Shown in pieces: positions 30,753 through 40,132 of a DNA stretch of 40,254 bases. Location: assembly GCA_035629175.1 (NCBI GenBank), contig DASPIL010000040.1:1-40254 (forward strand). The letters run 5' to 3'. A model generated the notes under the pieces. That model searched no databases, was not told the DNA's origin, and saw only the letters and a list, made by a program, of their open reading frames with translations. The stretch is from Verrucomicrobiia bacterium (GTDB taxonomy: Bacteria; Verrucomicrobiota; Verrucomicrobiia; Limisphaerales; DASXHY01). The position numbers and the translations under genes were made by a program. Position 1 is the first letter of the stretch. Every line of letters starts with the position of its first letter.

Positions 30753-30857
30753 GATGGGATCAAGCAATCGATGGTGGCGATTGCGAGCGCAGGTTGCCAC
30801 CCCGCCTGCGGACTCGCAAGTAGGGCAATAGGGCAAAGGTCGTGGAGCCCCGCGGGA

Positions 30858-32714
30858 TTAAACCTCGACGAACCGGATGGACCGGCTTTTCTCCGCGCGC
30901 TTGCGTTGATTTTCGTCCAGGATTTTCTTTCTCAATCGCAGGTTCTTCGGTGTCGCCTCCACGTATTCATCGACGTCGATATACTCCAACGCGCGCTCCA
31001 GGCTGAGCTTCAGCGGCGCGTTCAGCTGGATCCCTTTTCCATCCCCCTGCGAGCGCATGTTCGTGAGCTTCTTCTCCTTTACGGGATTCACTGGAATGTC
31101 GTTCTCGCGCGCGTTCTCGCCCACGATCATTCCCACATAGACATTCTCACCAGGCTCGACCATCAGTCGTCCGCGTTCCTGAATCATGTTCAACGCGTAA
31201 GAAGTCGCCTCGCCGTTATCCATGCTGACAAGAGAACCGTTTTTCCGCGCTGCAATTTCACCGCGATCTGCGCCGTATTCATGAAACAGATGGCTCATGA
31301 CGCCCATGCCGCGGGTCATGTTCACGAGGTCGGTTTCGAATCCGATCAATCCCCGCATCGGAACAAGCGCCTCGATGGATACGATGCTGGCGACGTGGTT
31401 CATGTTCGTGATCTGGGCCTTTCGGAACGACAGGTTCTCCATCACTGCGCCAAGGCAATCATTCGGCACCTCAACAAACAGTTTTTCAATCGGCTCAAGC
31501 GATTCGCCGTTGTCGCCCTTCTTCCAAAGGACTTCGGGACGCGAAACGAGAACCTCGTATCCTTCACGCCGCATCTGCTCCACAAGAATGGCGATCTGCA
31601 TTTCTCCGCGTCCGCTCACTGCGAAAATTTTCGGATCGCTGGTCTGCGCGATGCGCAAGGCGACGTTCGTTCGGATCTCCTTCACGAGACGATCCCAAAT
31701 GTGCCGTGCTGTGACGAGCTTGCCATCCTGGCCGGCAAGCGGTCCGTCATTGACCGCGAACTCCATCTGAATCGTGGGGGGATCGATCGGGATATACGGC
31801 AGCGCGGGGCGAAGTTCGGAATCGCAGATCGTTTCACCGATGAAAACGTCCTCGAACCCAGTCAATCCGACGATATCACCTGCGTGCGCCTCCTGAATCT
31901 CTACCCGCTTCATGCCTTCAAAATGGAAGATCGCCGTGATTTTGCTCTTCGTGACTCGTCCGTCACCATGGCGGCAAATCGCAGGGTCACCGAGCTTGAC
32001 CTTGCCTTCATGAATTTTCCCGAAGGCGATACGCCCGAGGTAATCGCTGTAATCGAGATTCGCCACAAGAACCTGGAACCCGTCACCCGCATGCGCGCGG
32101 GGCGGCGGAATGAATTTCACGATCGCATCAAACAGCGGTTCCATCGTACCCGTGACATGTTCCAGCTCGGTCTTTGCATAGCCTCCCTTGGCCGAGCAAT
32201 AGATGAACGGGAAATCCAGCTGCTCATCGGTGGCGTTCAGCGACATGAACAGCTCGAACACCTGATCCAGCACCTTCTTGGGGTTCGCGTTCTCGCGATC
32301 GATCTTGTTGATCACCACGATCGGCTTTGCGCCGGCTTCGAGCGCCTTGCGCAGCACGAAGCGCGTCTGCGCCTGCGGGCCTTCAGCGGAATCGACCACC
32401 AGCAGCACGCCGTCAATCATGTTCATGATGCGCTCGACTTCGCCGCCAAAATCAGCGTGACCCGGTGTATCGACGATATTGATATGGAAATTCTTGTATT
32501 TGAACGCAGCATTCTTCGCGCGGATGGTGATGCCCTTTTCTTTTTCCAGGTCCATGGAGTCCATGAGACGTTCAGTCGAAGTCTCGACCTGGTTGGCGCG
32601 GAAGGTGCCGGACTGTTTGAGAAGGCAATCAACGAGCGTGGTTTTGCCGTGATCGACGTGCGCGATGATCGCGATGTTCCGAATGTGCTGCATATCGTAA
32701 ATAACCGGAGCCAT
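30858..32714 (-). CDS. typA: ribosome-associated GTPase TypA/BipA
   Basis: This 618-residue translational GTPase binds the ribosome and helps 50S assembly and stress or cold responses. The G domain motifs are G1 AHVDHGKTT (19-27), G2 KGITI, G3 DTPGH, G4 NKID and G5 SAK. Domains II and III follow, then the TypA-specific C-terminal domain with [23 protein letters not shown] and [21 protein letters not shown]. Length is normal. ATG 32714 is used; an internal ATG at 32693 ([13 protein letters not shown]) matches the typical family N-terminus and is a good alternative. No Shine-Dalgarno precedes either. It lies 105 nt upstream of pagL on the same strand, with its own region upstream. Confidence 0.95.
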
Positions 32715-32869
32715 TAAAATTGTCCGTTCGCGTCCAACAGGCGCAAACGGGAAACGCAGGGGAAAAATCCCGCAATTTTCAGTCAGGGCAGAACCGGGCC
32801 GTGTAAGATGACGTTTTGCGCCGAAACGTCAAGCCTGCCGTGCAGGGCGAAAATGCAAGAATTCGCGGC

Positions 32870-37267: not shown

Positions 37268-40132
37268 CTAATTCGGTTTGACCGCGCGAAAGAAGCGTTG
37301 GGCGCGATCAGCCGGGCCGGCGGTGATATCCAGCAGGCCCACGGCGGGAAGCGTGTTCGTCGCTACGGTCTCCCAATGGGAAAGATTTGTTGACGCCTGA
37401 ATCCAGTAGGTCGCCCAGGGCGCCCCGGTAATTTGAAAGCGAAAACCGCCCGGTCCATCTGAAATGGCGGACAGCGCCGGAGGGGCATTGGTGCTGACAA
37501 GAATTGAATTCATCGCGAAGGCGCGGCGTCCATCGGGCCACTGCACCTCGGCTTCGATCCAGTGCAAACCCTCCTGTTCGCCCGGCGTGAAGGTAAACGT
37601 CGTGTCCCCGAACGTTGGTTCTGCACCGCGTGCTTCCCAGATGATTTTGGTGCCTGTCAGGTTGGTGTCGGCAACCTGCAACGTCACGGTCACTGGCCGG
37701 CCTGGCGGGGTTGCGATCGAAGAAACCGAAAGCGCCGCATTTGTGGATCGCCAGGGCTGGTTTGTCAGTGCCGTTTTTGCAGCCAGCCACGCAGCAACGG
37801 CGAAGCTTCGCACAGTGTTCGCCGTCGATGCTTCCGTGCTGACGTTCCAGAAATCAGCCCACCGGTCGTAAAACGGATAGGGACCGGATTCAAGGCCGTC
37901 CGATGGCCAGGTTAATGCAGATAGTTCGCCGCCATACAGCCACGTCCACACAAACCCTTCCTGTATGTTCCCAATGGGCACGCCAATTTTCGGCAGCACG
38001 CGATGGTCGTTGGCCGAGTATTGATCCACTACTTCGCGCTGCCGTTTCCATCCGATCCCCGTGAGATAACTGACATTGACTGGATTACAGCCGGTCTCGA
38101 AGTTGATGTTGAGAAGGATCGCATCGAGATAATCGGATTGGGGTGCGAATTCGTGCGCAACGACGATGTCAAAGGCCTGCTCGGTTGAATAATACCAGCC
38201 AGCCTTCCGGATCGTTTTGTTGATTTCGGGGAAACTGCTTCCGTATGCGTGCTCGTGTGACCAGCGGAGATTATCCTCCGCGCAATCGGCGATCGCCTCG
38301 ATGCACTTTGCGTGATAGGCCAGATCGATTTGGTGGGTTTGCAATCGTCCACTGCGCACAGCAGCGGCGTACGATCGAACAGCGTTCCCGTACGCGGCAT
38401 ACATTTTCCACCAACCCCAACGCATCGTGGAGGGATCGAGCGGATCGGGAAATCGGGCCTTCAGAATGGTGTGATAATCAGGATCTCCTGTTGCGAGGAA
38501 CAACTCGCAAGCCGCCCACGCCAGATCGTCTCGATCAGTGAATGCATCATCGAAATGCATGATCCGCTGGTAAGCCCCCTCTTCGCCGTGAACGGCTAGG
38601 GCGTTGGTCAGGAACCGCCATCCGCGTTGTGCGCTCAAAAAGTAATTGCTGCTGGCCTGTGGATACGCGGCCTTGAACCTCGGAGATGACGCGCATTGGA
38701 CAAGCGCAGCGACGGCCGCCGCTGTCGTTGCCGTGTTCTTGGGCCAGACCACCTGCGGATCGCCGTGTTCCGGAAGCACGTCGAACTCATACTCCCGCTC
38801 CTGCGGATGGATCATGTAGTAAAAGCCGCCATCAGCGTCCTGCATTTTCACCAGGAAATCCGCCTCCCACTTCGCCTCCTGCAGCACATCGCTGATGCCA
38901 TCGCCACTCTCGGGAATTCCCAGGTTATCGAGGCTTGCAACACCTGGGAGCGCATCGACTGCAAACATCATGATGTGAATTAATTGGGCGCTGTTCCAGC
39001 CCGGCTTGCTGTAATTAGCGGCCTCAAAGTGGCCGCCGGAAACATCGACTGGGCCAGGATTCACGAATGGATAAAGCTGTGCGGCAGGACTTGTCAGGCG
39101 CGGCGCCAGCTGGGGCGGGTTGTCAAAATTCGTGAAGCTGGCGTAATCCGCTATGGTGTTCCACGTGAACGTGAATGGGCCGGATGCATTCGTGGCAACG
39201 GCTGCGGGTGCGGTGTGATCCGCTGCATGAGTGAAGCGCGTGAACGGCATTGAAACATCAAACCCGCTGCGCTGGTGAAACATTCCAAGTGCATACGTTC
39301 GCGCGAGCAACATCCCGAAACCTTCACTGATGCGGAAGGGAAGCGATGCCCCCATGCCGGGAACAGCGAGGCGATATTCACCTGGCGTGCTGAAGCTCCC
39401 GAAGTCGGCTTCATACACCTGCTGATAGGGAGCTGGCGAATACGTGAACCCGATCTCGGGCCGCTGCTGAAGAGATCCGTCGAACACTGGAAGGCCCGTC
39501 GCAGTTGAAATGATTTGGAACCGATTTGTCGGTATCATCAATTCCCCCAGGTTTCCTGCTGCGTACCCGACCATCGCCTTTTTTGGCAGCGCAGGAAGGT
39601 AGCCTTCATGATTCACGTGAATCGCCGGGTTCAGGCGCAGAGGGTGGGCAGTTGCAAAGAAGCTTAGGTTCGTGGGCCACAGGGTTCCATCGTTGACGAC
39701 CTGGACAACCTGCCCAGGATTCACCGGGTGCATGAGAACGAGATAAAGATGATTCGCGATGCGAAGGTCCCAATTGTTTAGCGGCGCATAAATGGGACGC
39801 CGCTTGAACCCTACGGTGCTGACGGTGTTGGTAATGCCGTCGACAATGACCCGAATGCTGGAAAGGTCGGGAGGAGCAAATTCATCTGCATCATTGATCC
39901 AGTTCCAGTTTTGAACGGGAGCCAACCCCGGCGGCTTCGTATTGACGCGAACCATCTCGAGCACCGTTGGAGAAAGTATTTCGAGCGCATGATCCCCGAT
40001 GGCAGGCATTTGGAGATTCGCGAACGTCTCGTTGATTGCAAGAACCCGCACCGGCACGATCGACAGCACAGCCAGAAGGCACCAACGAATGAAGATCGTT
40101 CCAAACTGCGGGACATCGAGACACGTGTTCAT
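37268..40132 (-). CDS. exported glycoside hydrolase family 9-like protein with altered catalytic motif
   Basis: This 954-residue protein has a signal segment (IFIRWCLLAVLSIVPVRVLA). An N-terminal domain of about 130 residues is followed by an Ig-like CelD_N domain (NHEGYLPALPKKAMVGY from residue 174). The (alpha/alpha)6 GH9 domain covers about 265-790, and C-terminal Ig-like/sandwich domains about 800-954, ending RFFRAVKPN. GH9 normally has DAGDY after VSGG; here it is VSGGHFEAANYSK (Glu370, Asn373), so the catalytic base Asp is Asn. Conserved-looking GH9 context includes PESGDGISDVLQEAKWEADFL, DADGGFYY, TGCNPVNVSYLTG and a candidate acid Glu767 in VSTEAS. It may bind glycan or use another mechanism. 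It appears monocistronic; nothing is seen at 40133-40254. Confidence 0.85.
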   Translation of the reverse strand: MNTCLDVPQFGTIFIRWCLLAVLSIVPVRVLAINETFANLQMPAIGDHALEILSPTVLEMVRVNTKPPGLAPVQNWNWINDADEFAPPDLSSIRVIVDGITNTVSTVGFKRRPIYAPLNNWDLRIANHLYLVLMHPVNPGQVVQVVNDGTLWPTNLSFFATAHPLRLNPAIHVNHEGYLPALPKKAMVGYAAGNLGELMIPTNRFQIISTATGLPVFDGSLQQRPEIGFTYSPAPYQQVYEADFGSFSTPGEYRLAVPGMGASLPFRISEGFGMLLARTYALGMFHQRSGFDVSMPFTRFTHAADHTAPAAVATNASGPFTFTWNTIADYASFTNFDNPPQLAPRLTSPAAQLYPFVNPGPVDVSGGHFEAANYSKPGWNSAQLIHIMMFAVDALPGVASLDNLGIPESGDGISDVLQEAKWEADFLVKMQDADGGFYYMIHPQEREYEFDVLPEHGDPQVVWPKNTATTAAAVAALVQCASSPRFKAAYPQASSNYFLSAQRGWRFLTNALAVHGEEGAYQRIMHFDDAFTDRDDLAWAACELFLATGDPDYHTILKARFPDPLDPSTMRWGWWKMYAAYGNAVRSYAAAVRSGRLQTHQIDLAYHAKCIEAIADCAEDNLRWSHEHAYGSSFPEINKTIRKAGWYYSTEQAFDIVVAHEFAPQSDYLDAILLNINFETGCNPVNVSYLTGIGWKRQREVVDQYSANDHRVLPKIGVPIGNIQEGFVWTWLYGGELSALTWPSDGLESGPYPFYDRWADFWNVSTEASTANTVRSFAVAAWLAAKTALTNQPWRSTNAALSVSSIATPPGRPVTVTLQVADTNLTGTKIIWEARGAEPTFGDTTFTFTPGEQEGLHWIEAEVQWPDGRRAFAMNSILVSTNAPPALSAISDGPGGFRFQITGAPWATYWIQASTNLSHWETVATNTLPAVGLLDITAGPADRAQRFFRAVKPN

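Follow-up and report, generated by a model that had tools for sequence, protein, structure and literature searches.

In GH9 glycoside hydrolases, the second Asp of the DAGD motif is the catalytic base, according to PMC6038386. The account given there of the enzyme J30 makes D147 the base, D144 and Y151 a water network in which D144 holds the nucleophilic water, and Y306 a residue of the -1 subsite. For Cel9A the base was likewise assigned to the second Asp, by azide rescue, as told in PMC4071793. The metal site of GH9 enzymes seems purely structural in the same account of J30 (PMC6038386): C98, C114 and H143 are the engineered zinc site of this enzyme, and the wild type, which has A98, G114 and Y143, is active without it. 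LC-CelG carries Asp at the second Cys position and is listed there with a homologous zinc site. By analogy, the closest natural counterpart of the change described below is found in another family, the GH45 enzymes of beetles (LDE9 and the xyloglucanases), where a base Asp became Asn and a stabilising Asp became Glu within one family (PMC6509783). According to that paper, LDE9 has Asn for its base and showed no detectable activity, although Tyr8 is also changed in this protein and the text once names the lost residue as the acid. The stabilising Asp-to-Glu change accompanies the shift from cellulose to xyloglucan in most leaf-beetle xyloglucanases (same source). Activity was measured in these beetle enzymes, whereas the protein that we describe is known from sequence alone.

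This protein is encoded in a stretch of 40,254 nucleotides from a Verrucomicrobiia bacterium, hereafter the window (Table 1). Its Pfam Glyco_hydro_9 score is 110 bits for a cut-off of 27.7, and the alignment extends its GH9 homology beyond the Pfam match, to about residue 790. The protein is probably exported, judging from its N-terminus. The C-terminal extra domain is alike in four relatives (L005, L034, L006 and L036) and absent from the open reading frame of a fifth, L035. Two AlphaFold models had mean pLDDT of 57 and 60, with the active-site loops, including the one bearing the altered motif, below 50; they were used for fold matching only, with TM-scores below 0.5 by query length. Foldseek gave 36 matches at E <= 0.001, all of which we take, by title or known identity, to be GH9 entries, and the best of them in VIA had a Z of 23.3 (1ut9, rmsd 11.7, 422 aligned residues, from the poor model with pLDDT 60). 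The predicted fold is thus (alpha/alpha)6, closest to GH9 structures. The matches include a xanthanase, presumably also of GH9, which acts on an exopolysaccharide (6fhj/6fhn, VIA Z 18). The GH9 endoglucanases with a CelD_N domain (CelD/CtCel9A, J30, 3x17, BoGH9A and CbhA) share with the window protein the domain order, the acid Glu and several aromatic subsite residues, and their fold matches the model with VIA Z of 21-23, but with rmsd of 10-12.

Table 1. Features of the GH9-like gene and its product, with positions in the window
Feature	Position	Strand	Basis
GH9-like ORF, 954 aa, ATG start	37268..40132	(-)	ORF translation and Pfam
Hydrophobic N-terminus, likely signal peptide, ~residues 1-32	40037..40132	(-)	by eye from translation
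CelD_N Ig-like domain, residues 168-261	39350..39631	(-)	Pfam PF02927, E 8e-13
S289, at first zinc Cys (J30 98)	39266..39268	(-)	multiple alignment
GH9 domain (Glyco_hydro_9), residues 298-709	38006..39241	(-)	Pfam PF00759, E 2e-31
D305, at second zinc Cys (J30 114)	39218..39220	(-)	multiple alignment
H306, third zinc ligand (J30 H115), kept	39215..39217	(-)	multiple alignment
F369, at fourth zinc ligand (J30 143), adjoining catalytic loop	39026..39028	(-)	multiple alignment
E370, at first Asp of DAGD (J30 D144), codon GAG	39023..39025	(-)	multiple alignment
N373, at catalytic base (J30 D147), codon AAT	39014..39016	(-)	multiple alignment
P377, at water-network Tyr (J30 Y151)	39002..39004	(-)	multiple alignment
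F527, at column taken as -1 subsite Tyr (J30 Y306)	38552..38554	(-)	multiple alignment
E767, catalytic acid (J30 E523), kept	37832..37834	(-)	Glu in all grouped rows that reach this position
C-terminal extra domain, ~residues 885-954	37271..37480	(-)	boundary by eye

The active site differs from that of these endoglucanases at several positions at once: the base Asp is Asn, the first Asp is Glu, three of the four zinc ligands are lost and the His/Arg pair of the +1 subsite is V/Q. Residues 364-377 read VSGGHFEAANYSKP (39002-39043, minus strand), so that the window protein has FEAAN where characterised GH9 enzymes have HDAGD, and profile alignments to solved GH9 enzymes place the motif on the DAGD of 3x17, CelD, J30 and BoGH9A. 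An earlier sequence-only reading had seen here a DAGD changed to EAAN, with the base Asp at N373 and the first Asp at E370, and the translation, the profile alignments and the alignment of relatives all bear it out. Our column counts use 53 rows, aligned before some members of the family were fetched (43 canonical, 2 HFDAGD, 6 EAGD and 2 EAAN). Position 373 is Asp in all 43 canonical, both HFDAGD and all six EAGD rows, and Asn in the two EAAN rows, which also share a change from Gly to Ala at position 372. Position 370 is Asp in 43/43 canonical and 2/2 HFDAGD rows, and Glu in 8/8 rows reading FEA (those with HFEAGD or HFEAAN). The neighbouring water-side positions changed too: Tyr 377, found in all 43 canonical rows, is Val in seven of the FEA rows and Pro in one, and Tyr 527, equally invariant in canonical rows, is Phe in all eight FEA rows and in one HFDAGD row (the match of F527 to J30 Y306 follows the multiple alignment, from which the pairwise profile alignment differs by one residue). 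The water-positioning and base Asp are thus both absent from the window protein, and the catalytic acid, which shares its column with a Glu in four ordinary GH9 rows, is present. H306, Y448, W574, W646, W758, D760 and E767 are all kept in the alignment.

The structural zinc site (Cys, Cys, His, His) has lost three of its four ligands in the whole clade of HFDAGD and FEA proteins, including the window protein. Cys 289, Cys 305 and His 369 are found in 43/43 canonical rows each, and are replaced in the ten clade rows by Ser or Gly, Asp, and Phe, respectively. Among 271 conserved columns, 18 are diagnostic, and six of these fall within the 12 catalytic or zinc columns (P 2.6e-5, an optimistic value, since these positions were partly picked after an earlier column analysis); the diagnostic changes cluster at zinc and water-side positions. 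The +1 subsite columns (J30 H467/R469) behave differently: His and Arg are found in ordinary GH9 rows, but the canonical members of this family already have V (42/43 rows, with one gap) and mostly Q (39/43), so the family substrate may differ from cellulose anyway.

The sequence-only reading had further suggested a family of exported GH9 relatives that bind glycan, use another residue or act on an unusual substrate. The family exists, it is apparently exported and part of it has an altered DAGD, but EAAN is not its rule. Among 71 distinct members with the motif, from 167 loci fetched, 60 read HHDAGD, one HMDAGD (L041), two HFDAGD (L071 and L075), six HFEAGD (L005, L034, L069, L006, L036 and L090) and only two HFEAAN, the window protein and L035 (from genome G705), a protein 64% identical to it. 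The six HFEAGD members keep the base. Close homologues with DAGD, which that reading named as a refutation pointing to decay or error, are scarce and refute it only in part: one HFDAGD protein is 61% identical to the window protein, and HHDAGD relatives reach at most 56% over long matches and 57-63% only over partial ones (L021, for example, which has an internal stop, matches residues 342-496 at 63% identity). Identity to the window protein is 57-64% in the remaining seven FEA proteins, which read EAAN or EAGD. The window genome has three GH9 genes, of which the other two read HHDAGDY, and G705 similarly has two HHDAGD paralogs beside L035. The alignment excluded the short L020 and L030, and L021 is in no alignment; the group counts omit the ordinary GH9 rows as well as L018 (HHDAGD), L019 and L041 (HMDAGD), and one of the 43 canonical rows, L052, has no C-terminal part.

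Among 320 genomes from the order, 45 contained the family at E <= 1e-100 in a protein search, which scored only two candidates per genome and therefore undercounts paralogs. FEA proteins occur in at least seven of these 320 genomes (six by pattern, plus G008), and also in G705. We looked for further EAAN in the order with the pattern G-H-x-x-A-[AG]-N-Y, its first x restricted to codons ending in pyrimidine. It matched 27 places in 26/320 genomes; among the 20 places with loci only the window locus was GH9, and at the other seven the letters encode neither Asp nor Glu at the tested position. A GHNHAGNY motif recurs in 12 loci of the order (L155-L161 and L163-L167), unrelated to the GH9 query and perhaps belonging, by eye, to a metallophosphoesterase. 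In a sample of the phylum the FEA pattern was found in 3/387 genomes, one of them that of the window and the other two hits not GH9, and among relatives of the L035 genome the family was present at E <= 1e-100 in 3/95, with EAAN only in the L035 genome itself. In the open-licence literature searched, neither this family nor EAAN was found to be described, and a search of an anti-phage library gave no match.

Decay or sequencing error might produce such a motif. This explanation could draw on the absence of the base from only 2 of the 71 members, and on the number of deviations at 121 near-invariant GH9 positions, where the window protein, with 17, exceeds its nine clade mates (L035 has 11, the EAGD proteins 9-14 and the HFDAGD proteins 6 and 12; the median of canonical proteins is 1, with a range of 0-10). 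By these counts, constraint on L035 equals that on the EAGD proteins, which still have the base, and is somewhat weaker on the window protein. Yet EAAN is found in two genomes, in long intact open reading frames, and dN is far below dS: the window gene has dN of 0.29-0.38 and dS of at least 1.7 with the seven other FEA genes, and dN of 0.29 and dS of about 2 with L035, with dS near or at saturation (pairwise values with L058 were out of register and were disregarded). The window gene is under purifying selection. Since a relative as distant as L035 shares EAAN and dN is so low, we regard error or decay as extremely improbable.

A tree of 60 rows indicates how the motif arose. It was built by a quick method with SH-aLRT support and a midpoint root, with the ordinary GH9 rows outside, leaving out L018, L019, L029, L052 and the second L076 fragment. 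The two HFDAGD proteins branch outside the eight FEA proteins, with support of 80 for the clade of ten, 99 for L071 with the FEA proteins, 98 for the latter, 83 for the six EAGD proteins and 63 for the EAAN pair. A single origin of EAAN is likely, although not firm given this last value. The order indicated by the tree is loss of zinc ligands, then D370E, then D373N.

An inverting hydrolase that loses its carboxylate base should be crippled, and since this residue was replaced, stepwise in relatives, the protein may do no more than bind glycans, or may cleave them by a rearranged mechanism. Our best explanation, which we put forward tentatively and at just short of even confidence, is an exported GH9 protein that binds glycans and is impaired in hydrolysis. 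This protein of GH9 fold, from a Pedosphaera-like member of the Verrucomicrobiota, would descend from an inverting beta-glycanase that contained zinc. The first phase, probably coupled to a change of substrate, would have removed the structural zinc site and altered the -1 subsite on the side that holds the water (D370E, Y377V/P, Y527F), and in a second phase, on the EAAN branch, the base would have disappeared (D373N, G372A). The glycan chain is most likely still held in the conserved cleft, where W574, W646, Y448 and E767 are kept. Hydrolysis would be poor or nil, and the protein may have a glycan-binding or accessory role beside the two canonical, presumably active, paralogs of the same genome. 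From its sequence, we infer that it is exported, binds glycan, is impaired in hydrolysis and has shifted in substrate. Some observations speak against this explanation: both EAAN proteins retain E370 as well as the acid, E767, the 11 deviations of L035 lie within the range of the EAGD proteins and would also fit an active enzyme, and there are only two EAAN sequences among 71 members.

In the main alternative, the retained Glu might instead have taken over the lost function. E370, one carbon longer than Asp, would have become the water-activating base, freeing D373 to become Asn; the protein would still be an active inverting glycosidase, but its base would have shifted and its substrate changed. 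The presence of Glu in every FEA row, the precedence of D-to-E over D-to-N on the tree and the retention of the acid and several subsite residues are consistent with such a handover. According to PMC6038386, moreover, the first GH9 Asp is already one of the residues hydrogen-bonded around the attacking water, and for VC0615, another GH9 enzyme, the authors of PMC6096475 postulate that the earlier of two Asp, Asp140, is the base and that Asp144 coordinates the water (in VC0615 numbering). But the water-assisting Tyr (J30 Y151) was lost too, and the azide rescue of Cel9A, as told in PMC4071793, assigns the base to the second Asp. We find the handover rather unlikely and favour the hydrolysis-impaired binder over it. 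A fuller version, in which E370 replaces the second Asp as a relocated GH9 base, the zinc-free EAGD proteins are living intermediates, and the product is an enzyme that is active and has a new specificity, perhaps for exopolysaccharide, seems unlikely to us.

Another chemistry can be imagined, in which N373 would position the 2-acetamido group of a HexNAc glycan, with E767 as the acid, or another nucleophile would be used. In GH85 an Asn positions the 2-acetamido group, and such a mechanism would need just this combination, an Asn in place of the base and a kept acid. However, the catalytic spacing of inverting enzymes suits water rather than intramolecular attack, and no HexNAc link was found among the window neighbours tested. 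Some GH9 members do act on chitosan-derived oligosaccharides (PMC6096475), and still we consider substrate assistance improbable.

The neighbourhood of the gene offers other leads. On one side are genes for a class III aminotransferase and an ornithine carbamoyltransferase, and on the other, just beyond the window, a divergent ZnuA-type metal transporter operon. Elsewhere in the window, two long open reading frames of 648 aa (+) and 618 aa (-) overlap on opposite strands (30771-32717). In the operon (L091:328-5421, on contig C40 from 40327), one membrane subunit carries a fused C-terminal domain of the iron-dependent-repressor type, and a TTAG-N6-CTAA sequence precedes ZnuA, by eye. The position of this metal-uptake operon, 194 bases upstream of the window gene, might suggest that the zinc site was lost so that a secreted glycanase could work without zinc, the active-site changes being secondary. 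The ligands are indeed altered in 10/10 clade rows, before D370E and D373N on the tree, and J30 is a natural zinc-free active GH9 enzyme (PMC6038386), one that, unlike the window protein, keeps D144 and D147. Yet no ZnuA-like gene was found in the fetched flanks, several of them short, of the seven other FEA genes, so we draw no conclusion from the ZnuA neighbourhood, and zinc sparing leaves the loss of the base unexplained. We hold it to be very improbable.

Export, glycosyltransferase or sugar-transferase genes lie beside family genes in G075, G050, G072, G150 and G008, and on contig C84 of the window genome; such genes were not seen, by eye, around the family gene on its contig C20. Polysaccharide-export genes are thus close to some canonical paralogs, including one of the two in the window genome, and an exopolysaccharide may therefore be the target. 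In a further 20 loci from 19 genomes (19 HHDAGD and 1 HFDAGD), export or transfer genes were present at 3/20, against 0/20 control stretches, taken from contigs picked by number in the same 19 genomes and that of the window, with a shorter total (283 vs 342 kb). Only one of the eight FEA loci has such genes, and an exopolysaccharide is weakly suggested as target of the window protein. LuxR-type regulators were found at six of these 20 loci and two of the 20 controls. In three genomes a response regulator lies near canonical paralogs of about 890 aa (L102:8200-8874, L104:8993-9733 and L054:10410-11093), of LuxR type by Pfam in L102 and by eye in L104 and L054. The canonical paralog on C84 (L057:5467-12309, 2280 aa) includes, towards its N-terminus, a stretch resembling Peptidase_C25, and its gene follows two genes for polysaccharide export (SLBB), downstream of them; in G075 a separate C25-like protein (L094:266-2284) is found beside export genes.

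Overall, these proteins would form an ordered natural series within one cellulase subfamily, from zinc loss to a water-side Asp replaced by Glu to a base Asp replaced by Asn. With four existing kinds of proteins, the series makes it testable whether the base of an inverting glycosidase can be moved or lost while the protein stays under selection. For the bacteria that encode them, annotation as GH9 need not mean cellulase activity.
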